A stretch of DNA of 64,000 nt, taken from positions 1 to 64,000 of IMG/VR virus record IMGVR_UViG_3300031962_000001; one strand, written 5' to 3'. The notes beneath the pieces were generated by a model. It ran no database searches. It was not told the origin of the DNA and worked only from the letters and a program-made list of their open reading frames with translations. Positions 14,144 through 63,839 of the stretch are shown in pieces. The position numbers and the translations under genes were made by a program. This stretch comes from a virus. The first letter of the stretch is position 1. Each line of letters opens with the position of its first letter.

Positions 14144-16408
14144 ATGCCAAATTCTAGTTCACAACATGGGCAACTTCAGAGAGCTGGTATACAACGTTTG
14201 ATCTCTGATAAAAAAGGAAAGAAGAGGAAGAAGCTAGTCGCTTCTAAAATCAGAGAATCCTTCGGTGGCAAAATCTTTACAGAAAAGGGTCAAGACGAAA
14301 CTGGAAAGTCTGCTAACGGAAAACAACAAAAGAGCCGTGTCTACTTGGTTACGATTATTGAGGAAGGCTTAGGCAACTCGAAAGATCGCAATTATTATAG
14401 CAGCGACGCTCTCAAGTCTGGCACTAACGTATTCAATGGCGCGAAAGCCTACGCTGACCATCCAGACGCCATAACCGAAAAGACACTGCCAGAGCGCAGC
14501 ATGAAGGATTTGGTAGGTTGGTATAGCGATTGTTTTGTCGACAAGAATCCCCAAACCGGCAAGGCTCGTCTGCGTGGTAAGCTCCACTTCTTCCCATCCG
14601 CTAAGTGGCTCACCGACATGATCGACACAATTCTAACTGACAAGTCTGCCAAAAATCTTTTCGGGATATCTATCAATGCCGTAGGCCGAACAAGGCCAGC
14701 GCAAATGAACGGCGAAGAAGTGAACTATGTAGAAGAATTTCAGCGAGTAGACAGTGCTGACGTAGTGACAGAGCCAGCAGCACGAGGAAAGTTCGACCAA
14801 ATGCTGGAGTCTAGGCGATCTGTCGCGGGCGGTCACTCACGGAAAGTAAGTAACAGTATGGGAACTCGAAGCAAACGAACGAGAGAATCGGCGGTCTTAA
14901 GCCCCGAGAAGGCAAAAGAAGTTGCTGACGCTCTCGTATCGGCATATAACTCGGACAATCCAGACGAAATGAAAGAAGCATCGTTTTCAGCGGCGAAACA
15001 ACTCTACGCTGTTTCTTCCATATCTGGCAAAGGTCCGGGACAGCCAAACGAAGAGCAGTACAGCAACATCAATCCAAGTGGAGGTAAAGAGTCAATGGCA
15101 AAGAGTAAGAAGATGAAAGCCTCCATCGGACGGCGATCTTTCCGCAAAGGCAAGAGGCTTGTGGCCGCCGATGGCAAGGGAGCTGATAACGAAAACGTAG
15201 ACGAACCAGATCCTGACGACATCGAGCCTCGTTTGGAGGAATCCGATGTTGAGGACGAGGAAGGCGACAAGGACGTCGGCGCTCTAGACGACTTCGGCGG
15301 CAGCAAGCATTATGCCAAGGAAGCTCGCGGCCGAGGCGGTCGTAGGATGGCAGCACAAGAGGGCTTCGAGGACGAAGGCTTTGAGGACGAGGGAGCAGAA
15401 GACGAGGGCTTCGAAGATGAGGACGAGGGATTCGAAGACGAGGATGGCGGAATGCCAGGAGCGATGCCTCCGGGAGCGGGAATGGGTGCTGCTCCGGGTG
15501 GTGGTGCTCCGGGTTCTTCGCGAACCGTAGCATCTGCAGAAGCAGATGATGACGATGATGATGGTGATGATGATCTGGACGATATGGACGAGGCTTTCGA
15601 GGATGAAGACGAAGGCTTCGAGGATGAGGGGATGGAAGATGAAGGTGGCCAGATGCGTCCAGGAACAGTAGCAGAAGCAGGTCGTCGCCGGATGGCGGTC
15701 AGGGCAAGTGGTCGTAGTCCTCGCCGTCGTTTCAGCCGTGAAGCCGGACGTGCAAGCGGTCAAGGGCAGACTGTCAGCAAGGCCTCGTTCGCGGGTGGTC
15801 TCGGACACTCGGGGAACACTGCTTTGCCAAAGGGAGGCGACCCCACGAAGGGATACGATCCTGGAGGCACAGACGAGGATTGGGGCAAGAAGGACGATTC
15901 CACGTCTGCCGTGGGCAAGTCCTACAAGATCAAGACCAGCAAGTTCCGTCGCAACAAGGTAGCGCGTCGTGTCGCTCAAGAAGCCAATCGCCGCATTGAG
16001 ATTCTCGAGCATAACGTCATGCGTCTACGTGAATCCCTCAAGGCAACTGGGCGCACGCTCAATCGGTACAAGGGCATCGTCCGATTCACCGAATCTCAGA
16101 AGAGCGCACATCGGCTTCTGAACAGAGCTGTCGAAGAAGGTTTCCTTCCGGAGGAAATGGTCAACGAATCTCGAGTCCTGCGGGAATCTCTGTATGGCTT
16201 GAGTGAACGTGATCAGATCCGGGAGATCAAAAAGACTGCACTACTTCTTGAATCTGCTCAAGAGGGAGTGGTGTCTCGTTTGTCTGAAAGCGTTGATGGA
16301 AGTGGAGCCAGAGGCGGCGCTGTATCCTATATAAGGACCGCCGGAGCAGAAGACTCTGAGCTCGCTGCGGGATTTGCCGATGACGGCATTCCCCTCAAAG
16401 ACGAATAA
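14144..16408 (+). CDS. Prohead maturation protease fused to acidic scaffold
   Basis: This 754-residue protein has an N-terminal protease-like domain at residues 60-230, with candidate catalytic His106 (AYADHPD) and Ser186 (FGISINAVG), as in phage head maturation proteases. A long acidic, repeated segment follows at about 335-520 (GFEDEG and FEDEDEG units). A basic stretch and a helical, coiled-coil-like C-terminus (RIEILEHNVMRLRESLKA) complete it. The fusion of protease and scaffold, and the position before decoration and capsid genes, fit head assembly. Internal AKEARGRG and FSREAGRA sites may be self-cleaved. Catalytic residue assignment is provisional. Confidence 0.75.
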   Translation: MPNSSSQHGQLQRAGIQRLISDKKGKKRKKLVASKIRESFGGKIFTEKGQDETGKSANGKQQKSRVYLVTIIEEGLGNSKDRNYYSSDALKSGTNVFNGAKAYADHPDAITEKTLPERSMKDLVGWYSDCFVDKNPQTGKARLRGKLHFFPSAKWLTDMIDTILTDKSAKNLFGISINAVGRTRPAQMNGEEVNYVEEFQRVDSADVVTEPAARGKFDQMLESRRSVAGGHSRKVSNSMGTRSKRTRESAVLSPEKAKEVADALVSAYNSDNPDEMKEASFSAAKQLYAVSSISGKGPGQPNEEQYSNINPSGGKESMAKSKKMKASIGRRSFRKGKRLVAADGKGADNENVDEPDPDDIEPRLEESDVEDEEGDKDVGALDDFGGSKHYAKEARGRGGRRMAAQEGFEDEGFEDEGAEDEGFEDEDEGFEDEDGGMPGAMPPGAGMGAAPGGGAPGSSRTVASAEADDDDDDGDDDLDDMDEAFEDEDEGFEDEGMEDEGGQMRPGTVAEAGRRRMAVRASGRSPRRRFSREAGRASGQGQTVSKASFAGGLGHSGNTALPKGGDPTKGYDPGGTDEDWGKKDDSTSAVGKSYKIKTSKFRRNKVARRVAQEANRRIEILEHNVMRLRESLKATGRTLNRYKGIVRFTESQKSAHRLLNRAVEEGFLPEEMVNESRVLRESLYGLSERDQIREIKKTALLLESAQEGVVSRLSESVDGSGARGGAVSYIRTAGAEDSELAAGFADDGIPLKDE

Positions 16409-34828: not shown

Positions 34829-35458
34829 ATGAGCATACCGTCACAAGTAGCGAACGCGGGCAATAACAGCTCAGCGCAGAATGTTTTCAAGGTGACTTTC
34901 AGCCAAGCGTTGTCGTCACCTCCAACCATCGAGTCGTGGGACGATTCTACATTTTCTACCACGACCAAAGAGCAATTTGCTGGCACCACGATCAATGGAA
35001 ATATTCCGTACGTTTCTGTGGTAGCGACTACTGATGCCGCTCCTATCGCTGCTTGGAAGCCAGCATCTCCAGTCGCTGGTGGAGCGGTAGCAAACAGGCT
35101 GAAGGGTCTCACTAACTATGTCAATTCCTCCGTCAACACTCCTACGGCTGGAGGCGCGATCAGGTTCAACATTGACTTCGAGATACCGGCAGATGCCACT
35201 GTTCCCAGTACAAACACGTTCGGTGTCTTGGCGGTAAGATACGCCTATTCTGGCCCAACGCCGACAATCACGTGGCAGTACAATGACGTCGCTGCTGGAG
35301 GGACAGAAGGAGCGCCTCAGTGGACGAACATAACTCCTGGTGCGGCCGGAAACTTTATCAGGCCAGCGGATGCTGGCACGACTTCTGCGAACGTCGCAGC
35401 GACTAAGCCTACTAGCTCTGTTGCGTCGGCAAATCAAATCTGGGTAACCAACACATGA
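34829..35458 (+). CDS. Beta-rich tail-associated protein
   Basis: This 209-residue protein is rich in Ala, Thr, Ser and Asn and is predicted to be mostly strands (NVFKVTFSQALSSPPTIESW, GAIRFNIDFEIPADATVPS, FGVLAVRYAYSGPTPTITWQ). It sits between the tape measure and a homing-type nuclease, where distal tail proteins normally begin. No specific family is recognised. Its stop overlaps the next start. Confidence 0.45.
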   Translation: MSIPSQVANAGNNSSAQNVFKVTFSQALSSPPTIESWDDSTFSTTTKEQFAGTTINGNIPYVSVVATTDAAPIAAWKPASPVAGGAVANRLKGLTNYVNSSVNTPTAGGAIRFNIDFEIPADATVPSTNTFGVLAVRYAYSGPTPTITWQYNDVAAGGTEGAPQWTNITPGAAGNFIRPADAGTTSANVAATKPTSSVASANQIWVTNT

Positions 35459-36048
35459 TGACTAGGAAACAATTAGCAGCTTGCAGAAGAAACGCGAAAA
35501 TAGCGCACTCTCTTCCAAGAACCAAGAAACAATTAGAAGCGCTCAGGAGAAATTCTAAGATAGGCTGCGCTATGCCTAGAACTGAAAGGCAACTGAAGTC
35601 TCTAGCCAAAGCTAGAAAAGTGGGCCAGAAAGTGTTGAGCACTATGTCTAGGACTTGGTTGAAGGGAAAGAATAGGTATAAATATCCCAATAGGCTCAAA
35701 GCAGATCTCAAAAATATACAGATTGCCAACTCTCAACCTAAAACTGCAAAGCAACGTGCTACTTCTAGAGAGATGGTTAAGTATGCCCACGAAGGTTTGA
35801 AGAAGAGAAGAAAAGAGATCAATGGCATCTGTGAACTGTGCGGAGTTCCATGCTTCACTTATGGAGATCACTGTCATAAGACTGGAAAGAAGCGTGGAAA
35901 AGTCTGCCTCAGTTGCAACTTGGTTCTTGGAATGTTCAAAGACGATATAGGTCGATTCAAGAAGGCAATTAAATACCTTGAGAAATATAAAGTCTTGAGG
36001 TTTCCCAGACTGCCACAAAGATTTCCTAGATTGAAAGTGGCAGCATAG
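35455..36048 (+). CDS. Endonuclease VII-type HNH nuclease with N-terminal repeats
   Basis: Residues 1-70 hold three copies of a repeat of about 20 residues (TRKQLAACRRNAKIAHSLPR, KKQLEALRRNSKIGCAMPRT, ERQLKSLAKARKVGQ), resembling NUMOD-type DNA-binding modules. The C-terminal part has the recombination endonuclease VII core: CELCG and CLSCN zinc pairs, with GDHCHKTGKKRG carrying the catalytic His. It may be a homing nuclease inserted in the tail operon. The last 18 residues carry two RFPR motifs (LRFPRLPQRFPRLKVAA), part of a motif family described in the findings. Confidence 0.8.
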   Translation: MMTRKQLAACRRNAKIAHSLPRTKKQLEALRRNSKIGCAMPRTERQLKSLAKARKVGQKVLSTMSRTWLKGKNRYKYPNRLKADLKNIQIANSQPKTAKQRATSREMVKYAHEGLKKRRKEINGICELCGVPCFTYGDHCHKTGKKRGKVCLSCNLVLGMFKDDIGRFKKAIKYLEKYKVLRFPRLPQRFPRLKVAA

Positions 36049-44072: not shown

Positions 44073-44399
44073 ATGCTAGAAAACAGGGAAGTTCCAATCA
44101 GCAAGCTGACCACTGGGCAGGACTTCACGCTCGTGCTGAACGCCACTAGCAAAAGACGCATCAAAGGCCGATTAGTAGACCTCAGCTCTTGCAGCGCCAC
44201 AGTGATTCTGGACAATACTCTCAGTGAAAAGCTTCACTGGTCTACCAACAAGAGGCTTCACTGGTCCGTGAATACTCCCGTGATTCCTGGCAATAACATC
44301 AGAAAGAGATTCCCCAGAACTCCTGAGCGGTTCCCACGATCTCCGGTTTACAGATATCCGAGACTGCGAAAAGGCGAAGTGATGAGGTATCCACGATGA
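44073..44399 (+). CDS. Small protein with four R[F/Y]PR motifs
   Basis: This 108-residue protein has an N-terminal part resembling a small beta barrel (DFTLVLNATSKRRIKGRLVD, SATVILDNTL), then a basic tail containing RFPR twice and RYPR twice at 44307-44318, 44328-44339, 44352-44363 and 44385-44396. It is the densest carrier of this motif in the window. It is the first gene of the replication block, preceded by the conserved leader, and overlaps the helicase by four bases. Function unknown; nucleic acid binding is possible. Confidence 0.6.
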   Translation: MLENREVPISKLTTGQDFTLVLNATSKRRIKGRLVDLSSCSATVILDNTLSEKLHWSTNKRLHWSVNTPVIPGNNIRKRFPRTPERFPRSPVYRYPRLRKGEVMRYPR

Positions 44400-46816: not shown

Positions 46817-47467
46817 ATGCGTCGTCGCAGAAGAAAAAAGCCGCGTCGGTTTCCTAGACTCGATGTTCCGCTAGAGCTTAGGCACTACGAAAGAATCTTG
46901 AGAAGTGTATACAACGAGTTAGCAATCAGACGCGACAAGCGGAAAATGTTTTTCCAGTTCGATGTTTACAGGACTAAGAGAGCTGGCAGAGCGGCAATCG
47001 CGTTTCTGGATTTGGCAAAGCTCCTCAAGAATCACAATATCGATCCTGGCTTGTATTTGAAAATCATGTGCAGATATGGCAAGTACAAAGAATCCACGTG
47101 GATGCCAAGTCCAGTGTGGCTTGCTAAAAAATCTACGCTGGAAAATTTCAAATGGGTCTATCGTAGGGAAGAGAGAAGTTATCCTTTGCATCTGCAATTC
47201 AAAAAGGAAATTTCTGGCTGGAGTATTTTCGACATCTACGCTTCGGTTAGAGATTCTGCAAGCATGTATCGGGACGCAGTCGAAAAAGTCGGGCTGCATC
47301 CGGACATGGCGACGGTTATGCTCAAGAAAGATCTGAGTCCATGGTTCATGGCAACGTCGCTTCTGATTTCTAAGGACAGCAAAGATTTCCTAGAATGCCT
47401 AGACCTGCTACGTAAAAACAAGAAGCTAAAAAAACTTGTGTTCAAGGCGTACAAGAAATCTTTCTAG
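46817..47467 (+). CDS. Unknown basic protein with one RFPR motif
   Basis: This 216-residue protein begins MRRRRRKKPRRFPRLDVPLE, so the RFPR motif (46847-46858) lies in an extremely basic leader. The rest is helical, with aromatic segments such as IDPGLYLKIMCRYGKYKEST and WFMATSLLISKDSKDFLECL, and ends in a lysine-rich tail. It precedes the replicative helicase gene. Nucleic acid binding is a reasonable inference; no family is recognised. Confidence 0.5.
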   Translation: MRRRRRKKPRRFPRLDVPLELRHYERILRSVYNELAIRRDKRKMFFQFDVYRTKRAGRAAIAFLDLAKLLKNHNIDPGLYLKIMCRYGKYKESTWMPSPVWLAKKSTLENFKWVYRREERSYPLHLQFKKEISGWSIFDIYASVRDSASMYRDAVEKVGLHPDMATVMLKKDLSPWFMATSLLISKDSKDFLECLDLLRKNKKLKKLVFKAYKKSF

Positions 47468-51102: not shown

Positions 51103-52533
51103 ATGAGAACCAAAGAAGAATGGCTTGAGAACCTGATGTGCTGCGAAGGCTGCAAAGTGTTGGGCGAAGGCAAAGTCGGTTGCTTCTGGAAGAAACAGCA
51201 TTGTCCGTTGTGTGGCAAGGCTACTTCGAAATTCAAGAAGCTGAACGGCAAGAAGGGCGAGAAAATCCTTCGCTTCCCCCGCGAGGCTAGCACGGCAACG
51301 AAACAGCAAGTGGCGATCATGAAACAGATCAACGACCGCTGCCGCGACTTCGATTGCCCGGGAAAAGTGGTGGACGTTATCACTGGTCCCGTGGTTACCG
51401 AATACGTTTTCGAGCCTGACCGGTTCACCCGCGTCAAGAAGCTGAAGGGCCTGAACGAGGAACTTTCGCTGACACTGAGCAAGCCGGAACTCGGCATCGG
51501 CTCTGTGGAAACCGTCACCATCCGCCGCATCGCAGGCAGAGCAGCCATCGGCATCTCAGTGCCGAATCCAGACCGTAAGATGGTCAGCTTCAAGGATTGC
51601 CTGAAAAATGTCATCGCACATCGAGACGACATGGAATTGCCGCTCAACATGGGCGTCACTTCCACGGGCGAACCTTATGTGGAGGACCTCGCCACGATGC
51701 CGCATCTGCTTATCGGTGGTAGCACTGGCACTGGCAAGTCGGTATACCTTAATGCTTTGCTGACCAGCTTGCTCTATATCCGCTCGCCGAAGCAACTCTG
51801 GCTCTACATGATCGACCCGAAATCTGTGGAGCTCTTTCCATACAAAGGTCTGCCGCACCTCAAGCGCGACCCGGTCAACGATGTGTACGAGGCGCTCAGC
51901 GTCATGGACACGATCGAACAGGAAATGCGCCGTCGCACTAACAACCTCCACATCAACAAAGCTAAGGATATCAAGGAACTCAACACGCGCATCAAGGGCG
52001 AGGTTGCCGAGCTCAGAAAGCAAGGCAAGGAAGAGGAAGCCAAGAAGCGCGAAGCCGATCTCTGGCCCTACATTATATTGGTCATCGATGAGATGGCTGA
52101 TCTGGTGCTGGCAGAGAAGAAAATGTTCACCCAGAAGCTGGCGTGCATTTCCCAGATGGCTCGCGCCGCTGGCATCTGCATCATCAGCGCAACCCAGCGT
52201 CCGTCTGTGGACGTGCTGCCGGGAAAAATCAAGGTGAACTTCCCCGCTCGCGTCTGCTTCCGCGTGCCTAGCGCCGTGGATGGCAAGACGGTGCTGAACT
52301 ACAAGGGAGCGGAAACGCTGCTGGGCAAGGGCGACTGCTTTTTGGTGTCGCCTAACAAGGCTGGTCTCCAGCGCATCCACGTCCCCTACTGCACTCCGGC
52401 CGATCGCGACGAAATGCTGAAAATCTCGCTGGAATTCGGGCACGTCCTGAAAGTCCCGGCGGATTCTATGGAAGTCGCCGCTCCGGTCGTGGAGAAGAAA
52501 AACGGCAAGCCTGCCTCCAAGCTGGTCAACTAG
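51103..52533 (+). CDS. FtsK/SpoIIIE-like DNA translocase with zinc-finger leader
   Basis: This 476-residue protein has a Cys-rich leader (C13, C14, C17, C27, C34, C37) and an LRFPRE motif at residues 57-60. The FtsK alpha domain follows at about 88-170 (ITGPVVTEYVFEPD, AIGISVPNPDRKMVSFKD). The motor has Walker A GGSTGTGKS at 205-213 and Walker B YIILVIDEMADL near 323-334, then ICIISATQRPSVDVLPGKIK. It has no membrane segments and lacks the C-terminal winged-helix gamma domain that reads KOPS. Its codons end in G or C much more often than those of surrounding genes, suggesting separate origin. It probably pumps DNA in the infected cell. Confidence 0.85.
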   Translation: MRTKEEWLENLMCCEGCKVLGEGKVGCFWKKQHCPLCGKATSKFKKLNGKKGEKILRFPREASTATKQQVAIMKQINDRCRDFDCPGKVVDVITGPVVTEYVFEPDRFTRVKKLKGLNEELSLTLSKPELGIGSVETVTIRRIAGRAAIGISVPNPDRKMVSFKDCLKNVIAHRDDMELPLNMGVTSTGEPYVEDLATMPHLLIGGSTGTGKSVYLNALLTSLLYIRSPKQLWLYMIDPKSVELFPYKGLPHLKRDPVNDVYEALSVMDTIEQEMRRRTNNLHINKAKDIKELNTRIKGEVAELRKQGKEEEAKKREADLWPYIILVIDEMADLVLAEKKMFTQKLACISQMARAAGICIISATQRPSVDVLPGKIKVNFPARVCFRVPSAVDGKTVLNYKGAETLLGKGDCFLVSPNKAGLQRIHVPYCTPADRDEMLKISLEFGHVLKVPADSMEVAAPVVEKKNGKPASKLVN

Positions 52534-56593: not shown

Positions 56594-57319
56594 ATGGCCA
56601 TCCACACTCCAGTAGATAGTCCCATCTTTGGAGGACGCGTCTGGGGCCAGTCCAAGGACCGCAAGGCCCAACGACTGGCCGCAGCCAGGAAGAACAAGGA
56701 GTTCCGGCAGGAGAAGGCGTATCGCACAAGATACAAGGGAGCCAAAAATGATGTAGAGGCTGCCAACCTTTTCCTGCTTCTTGGCATCAACTATTTCAGC
56801 ACGCCGAAAGAACAGCTTGCCGCTATCGTGCGCGAGAAGTTCGAAGGAAAGAGAGCCGACGCCATCAATGTCAAAGCGATGGATTTCCTGACAGACAACT
56901 TTGATGCTCTGGTGGAGCTCAAAGATGGATTTCCACCACTGATAAGGTTCCGTCCGGCAGAGCCGGAGAAGGAAGAGGAGACACGACCCATGAAACTGTA
57001 TTCCCAGCTAGCAGAACGTTCCGGTCAGACACGTAGGGTAGTCAGAGAAGTGTACGAGGCACTGGTCTTGGAGGCACGCAAGGCTCTGAGAACAGAACGC
57101 CTTTTCAAGCTGCCCGATCTAGGCAGACTGAAGATATCGTACAGACCACCGAAGGAAAAGCGGAGGGGCATCAACCCTTTCACTGGCAAGAAGCAGTGGT
57201 TCAAGTACAAACCCGCATCAAACAAACTGCGCTTCGCACCGGCGAAGGTTCTGAAAGTCTTCGTCGCCGAGAAGGTGGAGGTTGTAGCACCGAAGAAAAA
57301 GAAAAAGCACAAGAAGTAG
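56594..57319 (+). CDS. HU-like DNA-binding protein with N-terminal extension
   Basis: This is a 241-residue protein. Residues 133-228 follow the HU/IHF pattern: MKLYSQLAERSGQTRRVVRE, then FKLPDLGRLKISYRPPKEKR, then GINPFTGKKQWFKYKPASNK. These give the two helices, the saddle, and the beta arm with the conserved NP-TG. The tail is lysine-rich. The first 130 residues are a basic, helical extension with no known family. ATG codon 133 (56990) has GAGGAG nine bases upstream and could start a free HU form. The protein probably bends or compacts phage DNA. Confidence 0.75.
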   Translation: MAIHTPVDSPIFGGRVWGQSKDRKAQRLAAARKNKEFRQEKAYRTRYKGAKNDVEAANLFLLLGINYFSTPKEQLAAIVREKFEGKRADAINVKAMDFLTDNFDALVELKDGFPPLIRFRPAEPEKEEETRPMKLYSQLAERSGQTRRVVREVYEALVLEARKALRTERLFKLPDLGRLKISYRPPKEKRRGINPFTGKKQWFKYKPASNKLRFAPAKVLKVFVAEKVEVVAPKKKKKHKK

Positions 57320-58451: not shown

Positions 58452-59306
58452 GTGGACCCACAATACGGCAAGATGAACATAATCCCCGGCATCACCGTCG
58501 TGGTGGATACTGTAACTGGCAGGTCTGCAAGAGTCGAGAAGATTCTGCCGAGCGGCGTCCAAGTAACTGTTAGGCAGCGAGGATACGAGCTAGAAAATTG
58601 GCAATGGAGTTGGCTTACAGTCCGTCAGCCGCGTCTAGTCAAACGCTATCCACGCCCGTTCCGATTCCCAAGGGAGGAAAAGACCGAATGCTGCCATTGT
58701 AAAATTGGTAAGATGGAGGCGCAACTTGAAAAAACGAAAGTCGAAGAAGGCTGGATCGAAACATGGATCGTCTGGTGTCTCAGATGCAAGCAACCAATCG
58801 GTACGGAAAGTTTTCCTAGACGTATCGAGAGAGCCTACGAGCTTGTACGCAAAGCTCGTAATGCAAAACCCAAACGCGAAGTTCATAAAGCAGTATCGCG
58901 ACGAGCAAGGAAAGTTTCACGTCATCACAAAAGTTCCGTCAAAGCACGGAGAAAGAGTACGAGTAAACTGGGTATTCGACCCACAAGGAGCAGCAATGCG
59001 CAAGCGAGCAATCGAAAGACAGTCAGGAAGGCCAAGCTCAAAACATCTAAGGTTCCCGCGAGAAGCCGTCAAAAGATTTCCACGGCTCGCCATCAGGAGG
59101 TTTCCAAGACTCGCCAAAAAGGGGTGAAACGTGTACGACATAGCGCGAGCCCTGAAAAAGTTCCGACAACTGATAAGGTGGACATCGTGGCGAGCGTCCC
59201 GCAACCCGATACTCCGGCAGACGTTCGAGGATCTGGAAGCGGAGGGGCTTCTAACGCTAGTGAAGTGTTGTCGGGAGTTCCCGGAGGGACAGACAAGGTT
59301 CACTAG
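58452..59306 (+). CDS. Zinc-ribbon protein with RFPR motifs and long overlapping C-terminal reading
   Basis: This is a 284-residue reading. Residues 1-65 look like a small beta barrel (GITVVVDTVTGRSARVEKIL, WQWSWLTVRQPR). RYPR and RFPR follow at 58644-58655 and 58662-58673. A zinc ribbon (CCHC and CLRC) comes next. From about residue 135 the sequence becomes Lys/Arg/Ser-rich and overlaps, in another frame, a small RFPR protein and the start of the sigma-like gene. No stop interrupts this frame, so the C-terminal part may be translated, but its composition may simply mirror the basic codons of the other frame. Confidence 0.5.
   Translation: MDPQYGKMNIIPGITVVVDTVTGRSARVEKILPSGVQVTVRQRGYELENWQWSWLTVRQPRLVKRYPRPFRFPREEKTECCHCKIGKMEAQLEKTKVEEGWIETWIVWCLRCKQPIGTESFPRRIERAYELVRKARNAKPKREVHKAVSRRARKVSRHHKSSVKARRKSTSKLGIRPTRSSNAQASNRKTVRKAKLKTSKVPARSRQKISTARHQEVSKTRQKGVKRVRHSASPEKVPTTDKVDIVASVPQPDTPADVRGSGSGGASNASEVLSGVPGGTDKVH
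58861..59127 (+). CDS. Nested small basic protein with three RFPR motifs
   Basis: This reading lies entirely within the preceding gene in the +1 frame. From the ATG at 58861 it has 88 residues (MQNPNAKFIKQYRDEQGKFH, RVRVNWVFDPQGAAMRKRA), then RFPR at 59050-59061, 59074-59085 and 59098-59109. A TTG at 58846, preceded by GAGAG, is an alternative start. Protein-like hydrophobic spacing and the RFPR motifs support it. It ends four bases before the sigma-like gene. Confidence 0.55.
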   Translation: MQNPNAKFIKQYRDEQGKFHVITKVPSKHGERVRVNWVFDPQGAAMRKRAIERQSGRPSSKHLRFPREAVKRFPRLAIRRFPRLAKKG

Positions 59307-59727
59307 ATATTTCAAACGCTCTTGGTACAATCACCTGAAAAGATTGTACCGAGATGGCTATGCTCTGAAACGACGCGGCATTGAAGTCGAGCTAGAAAAA
59401 GCCGAAAGCATAGCGCCTGCCGAGGACGATTTCCTAGAACGGATGCAATCTCGCTATGACGAGATACAACCATTCCTTTCACAAGACGCCAGACGGCTTC
59501 TGGAGAGCTTGCTGTCTACAGAGCCGGAACCTATGGCAATAGAATATGCGTGGCGAGAGTTCTGTCGCAAGAGCAAACTACGCTCGCTAGAAATTCCAGT
59601 AACAGGTGGAAAAAAGTTCCGTGTTCGTATTCGCCACGTCCGACGTGCGCTGGGCTTGACGACCAAACGGATGCGCGAAGTAGTCAAGGAAATAAAGTCT
59701 GTAAGCAGATCACACAGGAGGAAGTAG
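59131..59727 (+). CDS. Sigma70-region-2-like protein
   Basis: This 198-residue protein (GTG start) contains FEDLEAEGLLTLVKCCREFP followed by TRFTRYFKRSWYNHLKRLYR. This matches the DLxQEGxxGLxxAxxxFxxxxxxxFxxYxxxxIRxxIxRxxR block of sigma70 region 2. A C-terminal ALGLTTKRMREVVKEIKSVS segment could be a helix-turn-helix. Region 2 binds core polymerase and the -10 element, so this may be a phage sigma factor directing late genes. The usual extended region 4 is not obvious. Confidence 0.65.
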   Translation: MYDIARALKKFRQLIRWTSWRASRNPILRQTFEDLEAEGLLTLVKCCREFPEGQTRFTRYFKRSWYNHLKRLYRDGYALKRRGIEVELEKAESIAPAEDDFLERMQSRYDEIQPFLSQDARRLLESLLSTEPEPMAIEYAWREFCRKSKLRSLEIPVTGGKKFRVRIRHVRRALGLTTKRMREVVKEIKSVSRSHRRK

Positions 59728-61077
59728 ATGGCTAAGAAGAAAACAGGCAAGAAAAAGAGCAGAAAGGGCAAGAAGGGCAAGTCGCGTGACGAGGAAGAAG
59801 ATGAGGACGAAGAGGAGGTAGACGAGTCAGACGAGGAAGAGTCTGACGATGAGGAAGAGGACGACGAAGACGACAAGCCATCCAAAAAGAAGAAGCACAA
59901 AAAGTCCTCTGACGAAGATGAAGAGGACGAAGAAGAGTCTGAGGATGAGGAAGAGTCCAGCGACGATGAGGAAGAGGACTCTGACGACGATGAGGAAGAA
60001 GACGAGGACGAGGAACCTAAGAAAAAGAAGAAACACAAAAAGTCCTCTGACGAAGATGAAGATGAAGATGAAGAGGACGAAGAAGAGTCCGATGACGAGG
60101 AAGATGAAGACGAGGATGACGAGCCCAAGAAGAAAAAGAAAAAGGGCAAGAAATCCTCAGACGACGATGACGACGAGGAAGACGAAGACGAGTCCGAGGA
60201 CGAGGAAGATGAGGAAGAGTCCGAGGACGACGATGACGATGATGATGACGAACCTCCCAAGAAAAAGAAAAAGTCCAAGAAGTCAGAAGATGACGACGAG
60301 GACGAGGAAGAGGAGGAAGACGAGGACGAGGAAGAGTCTGACGATGATGATGATGAGGAAGAGGATGACGATGAGGAGGACTCCGCAAAGGGGTCCTCTT
60401 CCAAGCTCGTCCAGATCGATCCAAATAAGTATCAGCCCAAACAACCAAAAACCCCGATCCCTCCGGGCATAGAAGATTGCTTCGGCAAGTATTATGGGCC
60501 TCTGTCGGGAGAACCTGACGCCCCAGAGTGCAAGCGTTGCGTCGAAGCGAAGAACTGTGCGGCTGTAATGAAAGCCAACAGAGAAGACGAAGAAAAGGAA
60601 GGTAAAAAGAAGATGAAAAAGCACGGGAAGAAGCGGCACGCAAGAGAGGAAGAGGAAGAAGAGGTGAAGGTGTCCAAGAAAAAGAAGGGCAAGAAGCACC
60701 GTCGCGAGGAAGAAGAGGAAGAGGAAGAAAAGAAGTCCTCGAAGAAGGTGAAGGGCCTTGCTCCGGCTGTCAAGTCGATCTTGGACAAGTCCAAATACAA
60801 GAAGTACGATGGCGATCTGGTCAAGAGCGCGGAGAACAAGTACGTCGTCAAAATTCACGATGTGAAAGCTGTCCGTATCACACGGGCGAATCGCGAAGAT
60901 GGTGCTCAGTTCCGTCTGCTTTGCAAAAAGGAGCCGAAGAAATATGGACTGCGCTCTAGCGACTGGAAGAAGGCTGGCGCCGGTAAGTACGACTTCCAGG
61001 GAGAGCAGAAGGCTCTTCCGAAGAAGCTGCGTATTTTCTTCAAGAAGTTTGCGGCCGAGCACAAGGAAGCAGCGTAG
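59728..61077 (+). CDS. Charge-block polyampholyte with folded C-terminus (Nopp140-like layout)
   Basis: This is a 449-residue protein. Residues 1-230 alternate long Asp/Glu/Ser blocks (SDEDEEDEEESEDEE type) with short lysine blocks (KPSKKKKHKKSS, EPKKKKKHKKSS, EPPKKKKKSKKS) four to five times. A Cys-containing central segment follows (CFGKYYGPL, CKRCVEAKNC). More KKKK and EEEE blocks come next. A C-terminal folded domain (about 350-449, VKIHDVKAVRITRANREDGA) closes it. Such alternating blocks are typical of eukaryotic nucleolar proteins and of condensate-forming chains. It could buffer basic DNA-binding proteins or form a phage compartment. Function unknown. Confidence 0.6.
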   Translation: MAKKKTGKKKSRKGKKGKSRDEEEDEDEEEVDESDEEESDDEEEDDEDDKPSKKKKHKKSSDEDEEDEEESEDEEESSDDEEEDSDDDEEEDEDEEPKKKKKHKKSSDEDEDEDEEDEEESDDEEDEDEDDEPKKKKKKGKKSSDDDDDEEDEDESEDEEDEEESEDDDDDDDDEPPKKKKKSKKSEDDDEDEEEEEDEDEEESDDDDDEEEDDDEEDSAKGSSSKLVQIDPNKYQPKQPKTPIPPGIEDCFGKYYGPLSGEPDAPECKRCVEAKNCAAVMKANREDEEKEGKKKMKKHGKKRHAREEEEEEVKVSKKKKGKKHRREEEEEEEEKKSSKKVKGLAPAVKSILDKSKYKKYDGDLVKSAENKYVVKIHDVKAVRITRANREDGAQFRLLCKKEPKKYGLRSSDWKKAGAGKYDFQGEQKALPKKLRIFFKKFAAEHKEAA

Positions 61078-61143: not shown

Positions 61144-62451
61144 ATGAAAAAGATAGCAGTGGTGATGTTCGACGCTGGGCACATAGGAGGAGTTCTGCCA
61201 TACAATCTGGATCTGACCTATGGTCTGAGAGAAGCTGGCTACGAAGCAGACCTGATATTCGCTGTTCCCAAGGAGCAGCCTGACAAGGCGCATGGAGCAA
61301 AGGCTGGTTTGGGGCTGCGCATACATATATCGAAGTCTGGAGGAAGGCTGTTCTCAGAAAATGCTATCCCGTATATCGGGAAGAAAAATTCTGGTGAGCT
61401 CAAGGAAAAGCTCCAAGAATACGACGGCGTAGTCCTGTCCAAGGTTCCCAGTTGGAAAAGAGGTCACAACGATGACCAGGATTGGTTGAAGGCTTTACAG
61501 CATGGCAAGCCTATGGTGTGTATCGTGCATGACACGCTATGGCTGCGTTCCTACCCGTGGATACTTTCGCTGCGGGACAAAATCACATACTATGTCGCTG
61601 TACATCCGGCGGCATTTTCAATGGCGAAGCTGATTCCTGGTAGAATTTGCTGTATCGTGAATCCATTTGACATTTCTAAGTCTCAGAAGACCTACGAAAA
61701 GGACTGGAACGCGCTGGCTTCTACAGCGTTCTTCAGACAGTGGAAACATAACGAGGATGGCATTAGGGCAGTCCCATACATGAAACCTGTCCATCTCTTT
61801 CAGACTGGAGCAGGTATAGAACTGAGCTATATGAGGGCCGAACTGAAAAGCAAAGATAAATACAGTGGTAGTTCCTACGCTAACTATCGCAAGAAGATAA
61901 TGCAGTATCGTTGGAAGAAAAGCGACTACTCTTACAGAGAGAAGTGGGATGGTAAGAGAATATTCGATGTCGCAAAGAAGACTGGGCGATTCCATTATAT
62001 GGGTGTCGTGCCTCCAGAGGAACTGTACAATCTCAAAGCTGGATGCGGTGGCTCTGTAGATTGGTCCTATCATTCGTGGGGAGAATATTTCAACAGAGTT
62101 ACAGTAGAGGCTATGATCTACCACTGTTTGCCATTTGCCAGACCGACAGGTATAGCAGGCAACGAAACGGGGGAAGGGCTGGTCTTTGGACCTGAAAATG
62201 TAGTCCTTATCAGAGAAGGCTTGTCTCCAAAGAAAACTGGCGAGTTGATCGTAAGCTCTATGCATGACAAGGCGCTTAGGAAGGAAATGATTACTAGGAA
62301 TCTGAAGAAGATCGAGATGTTTGACAGGAAAGTGGTGGCGGAACAGATTGTGAGAGCTTTGAAAGGGAAGGAAAAAGTTGGACTGCTGGAGACGATGACG
62401 GGAAAATCTAATAAAAAAGTCAGAAGCTATATGGAGGACTTCGGAGAATGA
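61144..62451 (+). CDS. Glycosyltransferase-like protein, paralogue A
   Basis: This 435-residue protein has a GT-B-like start (KIAVVMFDAGHIGGVLPYNL), a middle GKPMVCIVHDTLWLRSYPW segment and a C-terminal block with SWGEYFNRVTVEAMIYHCLP, which resembles the donor-site Glu motif (E-x7-E) of GT4-type transferases. The gene downstream has the same layout. It follows a terminator. It is likely part of another glycan pathway or adds to the 18-28 kb cassette. Confidence 0.65.
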   Translation: MKKIAVVMFDAGHIGGVLPYNLDLTYGLREAGYEADLIFAVPKEQPDKAHGAKAGLGLRIHISKSGGRLFSENAIPYIGKKNSGELKEKLQEYDGVVLSKVPSWKRGHNDDQDWLKALQHGKPMVCIVHDTLWLRSYPWILSLRDKITYYVAVHPAAFSMAKLIPGRICCIVNPFDISKSQKTYEKDWNALASTAFFRQWKHNEDGIRAVPYMKPVHLFQTGAGIELSYMRAELKSKDKYSGSSYANYRKKIMQYRWKKSDYSYREKWDGKRIFDVAKKTGRFHYMGVVPPEELYNLKAGCGGSVDWSYHSWGEYFNRVTVEAMIYHCLPFARPTGIAGNETGEGLVFGPENVVLIREGLSPKKTGELIVSSMHDKALRKEMITRNLKKIEMFDRKVVAEQIVRALKGKEKVGLLETMTGKSNKKVRSYMEDFGE

Positions 62452-63839
62452 AAAGAATCGCCGTCCTCCTGTTCGAAGTGTTCAACAACCTCGGCGGCAT
62501 CCTACCGTCTACATACCATACCTGCAAAGGTCTGGAAGAGGCAGGTTACGAACCGTTCATATTCCATGCGGAATGGAAAGACCGGAAATACGACCGGCCA
62601 GAAGGCAGCTATAAAAACGTGGGGTTTGGACTACGCACTAGCACGAGCAAGGGACTAGAGCGTATACGCATGTTTGCCAGCCCTAAGCATACTTTCCTGT
62701 ACCGTGGGCGATCGTGCGCCAGGGACCTCCGGGACGCCCTTAGCGAGTATGATGGCGTTATACTTAGCAGTTCCATACCGTCTATTGCGGCAAAGAAGAT
62801 GGGTGGCAACAACGACTGGAAAATAGTGCTTCAGCACGGCAAGCCGATGATAGGCATGGTGAGAGACTGTCACTGGAGCCGTCTGTCGCCACACATATTT
62901 CCATACAGACATCTGTTTCAGGCTTTCGTGGGAGTACACCCAGCCGCGTTCAACTCGCTGAAAAACATGCCATGGAAAATTGCCTGTCAGCCGAATCCGC
63001 ATGACACTTCCCTGTATGGTAGGGAATACGAAAAGAACTGGGAGGAAGTCTGCATCACGTCGTGGTTCAAACAGTGGAAGCATATCGACGATGCTCTCAG
63101 AGCAGTACCGTATATGAAGCCAATCCGTTTGCGGATAGCTGGTGGTGGCATCGAGCATTCCTATATGGAAGCTGCTAAGAAGAATCCAGATAGGCCGCGT
63201 GAGGATTTCAACTTGGAATCGACGTACCGTTCTTGGCAAAACAAAATGAGATTCTATTCGTGGAAGGAAAACGACAAGAGCGTCAGGGACAAGTGGATTG
63301 GTAAAAGTATCTGGGAAGTAGCGGAGCGCTCCGGAAATTTTACGTACGAAGGATTCCTGTTGCAAGGCAGACAGCTTGACGATCTTCAATCGGAATGTGG
63401 AGGCCTGTTTGATCCTTCCTACCATTACGACTGGGGAGAGCATTTCAATCGCACGATGATAGAGGCCATCCTGCATCATAGCATTCCGTTCATGAGGCCA
63501 TATGGCATCTCAGACAACGCGGAAGGCCAAGGCAAGATATTTGGACCTGACAATGCTGTCATGATTCCTGAGACGGCTTCTCCAAAAAGGATAGGCGAGA
63601 TAATCCGCTCGTCGATGAACGATAGAAAACTTAAGAGAGACCTGAAGGCGGCGAACGCTGAGAAGGTTCAAATGTTCAACAGGACGTATGTGGCTAGACA
63701 GTATATAAAATTATTGGAGGGAAAGGAGGCAGGTCTGTTCGGCATACAGGAGGGAAAGCTCGATGAGAAGACACTGTTCAGGCTGAATAAGCTAGGTCTC
63801 ATCAGGAGGTTCCCCAGAACATTCAGATTCCCGAGGTGA
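62448..63839 (+). CDS. Glycosyltransferase-like protein, paralogue B, with RFPR tail
   Basis: This 463-residue protein is a paralogue of the preceding gene (LLFEVFNNLGGILPSTYHTC; GKPMIGMVRDCHWSRLSPH; DWGEHFNRTMIEAILHHSIP). It differs by a C-terminal extension of about 25 residues ending LGLIRRFPRTFRFPR, with RFPR at 63807-63818 and 63825-63836. The upstream paralogue lacks this tail and ends in SYMEDFGE. The overlap with the upstream stop is four bases. The added motif suggests that the tail is a separable tag. Confidence 0.65.
   Translation: MKRIAVLLFEVFNNLGGILPSTYHTCKGLEEAGYEPFIFHAEWKDRKYDRPEGSYKNVGFGLRTSTSKGLERIRMFASPKHTFLYRGRSCARDLRDALSEYDGVILSSSIPSIAAKKMGGNNDWKIVLQHGKPMIGMVRDCHWSRLSPHIFPYRHLFQAFVGVHPAAFNSLKNMPWKIACQPNPHDTSLYGREYEKNWEEVCITSWFKQWKHIDDALRAVPYMKPIRLRIAGGGIEHSYMEAAKKNPDRPREDFNLESTYRSWQNKMRFYSWKENDKSVRDKWIGKSIWEVAERSGNFTYEGFLLQGRQLDDLQSECGGLFDPSYHYDWGEHFNRTMIEAILHHSIPFMRPYGISDNAEGQGKIFGPDNAVMIPETASPKRIGEIIRSSMNDRKLKRDLKAANAEKVQMFNRTYVARQYIKLLEGKEAGLFGIQEGKLDEKTLFRLNKLGLIRRFPRTFRFPR

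Follow-up and report, generated by a model that had tools for sequence, protein, structure and literature searches.

The charge-block gene and its surroundings

The window, the whole stretch of 64,000 nucleotides that was analysed, belongs to a 92.9-kb tailed-phage contig from IMG/VR that encodes a terminase, portal, tape measure, DNA polymerase and UvsX-like recombinase. It contains an ORF whose product, P0001, joins a long N-terminal region of alternating charge blocks to a cysteine motif and a C-terminal folded domain (Table 1). The first-pass annotation had ended this gene at 60780; the ORF extends 297 bases further, to 61077, and the shorter version truncates the folded domain.

Table 1. 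Features of the charge-block locus and related sites. Positions are those of the window unless a locus or the contig is named.
Feature	Position	Strand	Basis or remark
gp27-like charge-block protein (P0001)	59728..61077	+	ATG-start ORF, 449 aa; homologues P0009, P0010, P0011 and P0012 with conserved gene order
P0001 residues 1-226, basic N-terminus then alternating D/E/S and KKKKK blocks	59728..60405	+	charge-block and shuffle statistics, charge-hydropathy
P0001 conserved linker LVQIDxxKYxPxxPxxxIPxGIED, preceding the Cys motif	60406..60477	+	alignment of five homologues
P0001 residues 251-277, CFG-x(n)-C-x2-C-x5-C motif	60478..60558	+	common to SPO1 gp27
P0001 second charged linker (K/E blocks), low pLDDT	60574..60747	+	
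P0001 residues 346-446, C-terminal folded domain	60763..61065	+	AlphaFold2 pLDDT 91; VIA-align Z 6.1-7.8
gp28-like sigma factor	59131..59727	+	stop codon abuts start of 59728; hhalign to SPO1-group gp28 profile
AGGAGG Shine-Dalgarno-like site within the end of the sigma gene	59716..59721	+	sequence
HU-like DNA-binding protein, KKKKKHKK tail	56594..57319	+	PF00216 E 1.8e-11; kept upstream in L016-L018 loci
CxxC-type protein, strongly basic tail	58452..59306	+	upstream of sigma gene in 5/5 loci
Putative SSB with charge-block C-terminal tail	L005:6261-7241 (contig 70261-71241)		precedes UvsX-like recombinase
RFPR-bearing ORFs in the window	35455-36048, 44073-44399, 46817-47467, 51103-52533, 58452-59306, 62448-63839		
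RFPR in further loci	L005, L006, L016-L018, L022, L026-L029		

The sigma-like and HU-like neighbours named in the first-pass annotation were both confirmed, the latter by its PF00216 match. The sigma protein aligns nearly end to end with an SPO1-group gp28 profile (hhalign probability 97.0, E 1.1e-10, 181 columns), and with the distant relative L002 added to the comparison these values become 98.5 and 3e-15; it also matches phrog_351 (E 7.6e-4) and, weakly, sigma factors in the PDB. The AGGAGG site lies in the final part of the sigma gene, a placement consistent with translational coupling to the charge-block ORF. The order of sigma gene followed by charge-block or gp27-like gene is found in the genome studied here (G000) and at loci L016, L017, L018, L022 and L002.

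Internal proteins of phages may carry a high charge, and this is what a virion-internal or DNA-packaging role for P0001, rather than a regulatory one, has in its favour. However, the gene lies in a replication and transcription cluster, directly behind the sigma gene and away from the head genes (around window positions 14144-16408 and contig 81-88 kb), and we find such a role hardly credible.

Three further features of the region and the contig were observed. First, a second ORF in another frame (58705-59127) overlaps the basic tail of the CxxC-type gene; the two frames are each kept across five genomes, with 32-45% and 40-43% identity, and may constitute a true overlapping gene pair. Second, at contig positions 77725-78757 (L005:13725-14757) another sigma-like gene is followed by an ORF matching the late transcriptional activator family phrog_836 (E 3.7e-4), a pair that resembles SPO1 gp34/gp33. 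Third, 12 ORFs of the contig together contain 17 copies of the tetrapeptide RFPR, where shuffles would give 0.56; the relatives have 20 copies in 18 ORFs, and 97 control-phage ORFs have none. Its codons are scrambled, its occurrences are almost only on the coding strand and mostly near protein N- or C-termini, and in all five genomes the UvsX-like protein carries it close to the N-terminus. RFPR has the look of a docking or targeting peptide used throughout the phage.

Charge pattern, conservation and maintenance of the blocks

The N-terminal 226 residues of P0001 are 81% D, E, K and R, with 141 acidic residues and a net charge per residue of -0.43. Scanned with a 9-residue window, their charge profile reads +-+-+-+-+-, with five basic blocks strictly alternating with five acidic ones; the basic blocks start at about residues 1, 49, 96, 131 and 175 and recur every 35-48 aa. 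The charge-segregation statistic is 0.349, compared with 0.117 +/- 0.014 in 1000 residue shuffles (z = 16). Under a stricter threshold the alternation restarts past the Cys motif, over residues 290-345. When all non-overlapping ORFs in the 92.9-kb contig are compared, P0001 alone reaches ten alternations in 220 aa, and the putative SSB is the sole other ORF with at least four. Charge-hydropathy places the N-terminal part far into the disordered side, and the region is predicted to be disordered. Block alternation over more than 200 residues, as the first-pass annotation had described it, is borne out by the charge-pattern calculation.

An excess of negative charge of this size, together with the HU-like and basic-tail genes of the same cluster, speaks for an acidic chaperone or sink: the D/E blocks would bind basic DNA-binding proteins of the phage or host (HU-like, basic-tail or host nucleoid proteins) and strip them from phage DNA or store them, while the K blocks would serve solubility, with no condensate and no direct role in transcription. 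We consider this unlikely, since it leaves unexplained why K blocks recur in the middle of the region, why the gene follows a gp28-like sigma gene in every relative, why a Cys motif is present, and why the putative SSB bears a tail of matching style, described below.

Searches with P0001 alone returned one distant match or none, and a near search of phage records with it gave no homologue. Four close homologues were reached through the neighbouring FtsK-like gene, a profile of the Cys and C-terminal part, and the sigma profile. They lie in genomes G002, G003, G004 and G005 (loci L016, L017, L018 and L022, respectively), each directly behind a sigma gene and in the same gene order as in G000. 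Identity to P0001 over the Cys and C-terminal part is 41-50%, and the accompanying sigma proteins are 43-56% identical to that of the window. In all four homologues the N-terminus is basic and a long, acidic polyampholyte region is kept. Block alternation is strong in G004 (z 19.6) and G005 (z 16.1), whereas segregation is weaker in G002 (z 3.0) and G003 (z 2.9), sister genomes with 68% identical sigma proteins in which the acidic repeats are rich in DSSE/DAS. With two of the five homologues weakly segregated, the clade does not depend on strict alternation. The number of blocks among the homologues is 4-5, and the folded part is unchanged.

In the more distant L002 the sigma gene is followed by that of a 249-aa protein that has the Cys motif and lacks the charge-block N-terminus. 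A Candidatus Omnitrophota MAG (QNCD01000002.1) also includes the L002 contig, and this deposit of the L002/L021 phage contig is a possible host clue.

The first-pass annotation had asked for homologues with the same block order and had reasoned that homologues keeping only the folded domain, with no block alternation, would mark the repeats as replication slippage. The outcome is divided: G004 and G005 keep strong blocks and G002 and G003 keep the basic N-terminus with a polyampholyte of weak segregation, while L002 and SPO1 gp27 are without the long N-terminal region. The DNA itself argues against slippage. Each of the five genes uses a mixture of codons for D, E, K and S, and the longest internal repeat lies within the synonymous-shuffle null in four of the five genomes. 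The exception is G000, where a 29-base internal repeat is longer than most synonymous shuffles, though marginally so (P 0.025); the G000 gene also has a tandem period of 108 bp in 2.4 copies. Because the codons are scrambled and the repeats of four genomes fall within the null, the charge-block pattern is kept mainly at the protein level, with occasional duplication of units, as in the 108-bp period, being likely. Low-complexity drift, in which repeats born of slippage persist as tolerated filler, could account for this period, for the single 29-base repeat and for the varying block composition among homologues. It is hard to square with the scrambled synonymous codons, with internal repeats no longer than those of synonymous shuffles in four genomes, with DNA common to the charge-block and SSB genes that is no longer than chance, and with a basic N-terminus and block order kept in homologues only 40-55% identical; we judge it very improbable.

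The putative SSB is conserved in four related contigs, and its best PDB match, a weak one, is T4 gp32 (E 0.22). Its tails in G000, G004 and G005 have K blocks between D/E blocks, that of G005 using the same EPKSKKKKKKKSKDEDEDED wording as the charge-block regulator of that genome, and those in G002 and G003 are of the DSSDAS type. The style of the SSB tail matches that of the charge-block regulator in each of the five genomes; since G002 and G003 are sisters, this covariation may rest on a single change. A common origin of the two tails at the DNA level, by gene conversion or slippage, was also considered and is not supported, as the DNA stretches shared by the two genes (15, 17, 11 and 29 bases in four genomes) have lengths that synonymous shuffles also produce.

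Cysteine motif, relation to SPO1 gp27 and C-terminal fold

No family was assigned to P0001 from Pfam or PHROGs. Its gene position and Cys motif point to SPO1 gp27. In SPO1, gene 28, encoding the middle sigma factor, is followed by gene 27, and P0001 is likewise encoded immediately downstream of a gp28-type sigma gene. The CFG...C-x2-C...C motif is present in P0001 and conserved in all five homologues, where it forms a putative metal-binding knuckle. The consensus of this motif led to Exiguobacterium and Lysinibacillus phage proteins that are encoded downstream of gp28-like sigma factors and are SPO1 gp27 homologues. Moreover, the HMM of the SPO1 gp27 family (phrog_13400, which SPO1 gp27 matches at E 1.6e-80), when run against whole contigs, identified one place in each of five relatives (the four close homologues and L002; E 2e-5 to 2e-4), and in each this was the gene behind the sigma gene. 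P0001 itself gave no match to this HMM, perhaps due to five extra residues within its Cys motif, and the link runs via the homologues.

The CFG-C-CxxC-C motif is also seen outside the gp27 setting, at the end of a Thermus phage phiLo protein and in gut-phage proteins encoded just behind a helicase gene (L007:3035-4084; L009:3905-4306; L010:3908-4309; L012:3920-4309). Judged from these sequences it is a small motif common to several phage proteins. By itself the motif does not single out gp27, and the link to this protein relies on motif and position together. The C-terminal parts differ: residues 116-146 of SPO1 gp27 weakly match PF07498 (Rho_N/SAP-like, E 0.011), and P0001, in which no C-terminal segment of this type was found, has a double-wing-like domain instead. 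We therefore call P0001 gp27-like, by position and Cys module, and not a full member of the gp27 family.

The folded C-terminus anticipated by the first-pass annotation was recovered by AlphaFold2, which, using the five homologues, modelled the last 105 residues of P0001 with pLDDT 91 and pTM 0.84 as three main helices and six strands. The top rows of VIA-align were YjbR/DUF419 (Z 7.8 and 7.3), DUF1801 (7.0 and 6.8) and the T4 MotA C-terminal domain (CTD; 6.5, 6.2 and 6.1), with unrelated folds lower, at about Z 4; a larger P0001 model gave the same top matches. The MotA CTD structures 1kaf, 5jlt and 6k4y aligned with Z 6.1-6.6 over 91-93 residues and an rmsd of 3.2-3.8 Å. Foldseek against the PDB gave E values above 0.05, and above 0.1 for MotA. 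With VIA Z below 8 and Foldseek E above 0.05, the likeness to a MotA double wing is suggestive only and not proof. A sequence search of the domain against the PDB returned nothing useful, and the MotA C-terminal HMM (PF09158) found no match in the contig, an uninformative result given that it found none in the control genomes either. The double wing of the MotA CTD comprises three helices and six strands and binds MotA-box promoter DNA (PMC2988021). The C-terminal domain of P0001 probably binds DNA as well, and the first-pass suggestion of a targeting part at this end of the protein is plausible in this DNA-binding sense.

Since P0001 combines an acidic region and a predicted DNA-binding-like domain in a single chain, it could also be an intramolecular regulator, in which the acidic blocks act as DNA mimics and mask the C-terminal domain until sigma, RNA polymerase or single-stranded DNA frees it. 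Acidic tails regulate other DNA-binding proteins. Within this phage, the SSB-like protein is of the same design, and T4 gp32 has C-terminal tails that serve to recruit proteins (PMC11551737). Such a switch, however, has no need for repeated K blocks or for more than 200 residues, and the number of blocks varies among homologues with an unchanged folded part. We regard it as quite improbable.

Proposed role and comparison with known systems

We propose, giving it about an even chance, that P0001 is the gp27-like partner of the gp28-like sigma factor and that its charge blocks concentrate it together with the SSB at replicating phage DNA. P0001 would then act as a gp27-like regulator of middle or late phage transcription: the C-terminal domain would bind phage DNA or promoters, the Cys motif would bind metal and contact sigma or RNA polymerase, and the charge blocks would form multivalent electrostatic contacts among themselves as well as with the SSB tail and the HU-like and basic-tail proteins. 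Sigma, regulator and polymerase would be concentrated on replicating, SSB-coated phage DNA, either as a condensate or as a dense hub, and such concentration would couple late transcription to replication. In our analysis the charge blocks are most economically read as a source of multivalent contacts by which the regulator, and via similar tails the SSB, is concentrated at phage DNA. In the phase separation of Ki-67 and NPM1 it is alternating charge blocks, averaging ~30-40 aa, and not net charge that decide (PMC9106583); the spacing of the basic blocks in P0001 is 35-48 aa. Likewise, in Treacle condensates alternating blocks stabilise and, together with a K-rich region, govern the condensate (PMC11996177).

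A bolder version, which we consider possible but doubtful, is that the charge-block code serves as an address by which the tails of the sigma regulator and the SSB co-condense into a membrane-less compartment for replication and transcription. If true, the phage would have a viral and prokaryotic equivalent of the partitioning by charge blocks that is described for eukaryotic transcription regulators and nucleolar proteins. The proposed role bears on how late transcription is coupled to replication in phages outside the T4 clamp system. It would also offer a natural phage version of charge blockiness, with weak-block sister genomes for comparison, that is testable in bacteria.

The eukaryotic proteins Nopp140/SRP40 and Treacle resemble P0001 in that acidic/Ser blocks alternate with basic ones and that one end is folded or conserved. 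The 'Nopp140-like' label of the first-pass annotation holds for this charge layout. It does not extend to the domains, as no SRP40_C or LisH match was found in P0001 (Pfam, E 0.1); a plain Nopp140-like identity was dropped, and P0001 is not a Nopp140 relative. The two also differ from P0001 in that its basic blocks are near-pure KKKK runs and that it comes from a phage, where there is no nucleolus. P0001 may resemble T4 MotA in its C-terminal domain, predicted with three helices and six strands, and is likewise a phage protein sitting with the sigma apparatus. Unlike MotA, P0001 is without the N-terminal activation domain (no Pfam match, E 0.1) and has the charge-block region in its place; no sequence similarity was found between the two, and identity in the structural alignments is 5-11%. 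The putative SSB is similar to the T4 gp32 type in adjoining a UvsX-like recombinase, in its conserved H...C...CxxC residues and in its acidic tail end, and differs by the weakness of the sequence match and by a tail with K blocks in the style of the charge-block protein.

SPO1 gp27, annotated as 'regulation and/or late gene expression', is to our knowledge a genetically defined factor for which no mechanism is known. Similar to P0001, it is encoded by the gene following that of the gp28 sigma, and in both the CFG-C-CxxC-C motif precedes a charged K/E-rich linker and a C-terminal domain. Unlike P0001, gp27 has only 155 aa, with 18 residues ahead of the Cys motif and no N-terminal charge-block region, and its own C-terminus is Rho_N/SAP-like and not double-wing-like. 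In the clade described here the gp27 position is taken by a protein that combines a DNA-binding-like domain with a charge-block tail, and this tail matches in style that of the SSB-like protein of the same phage.
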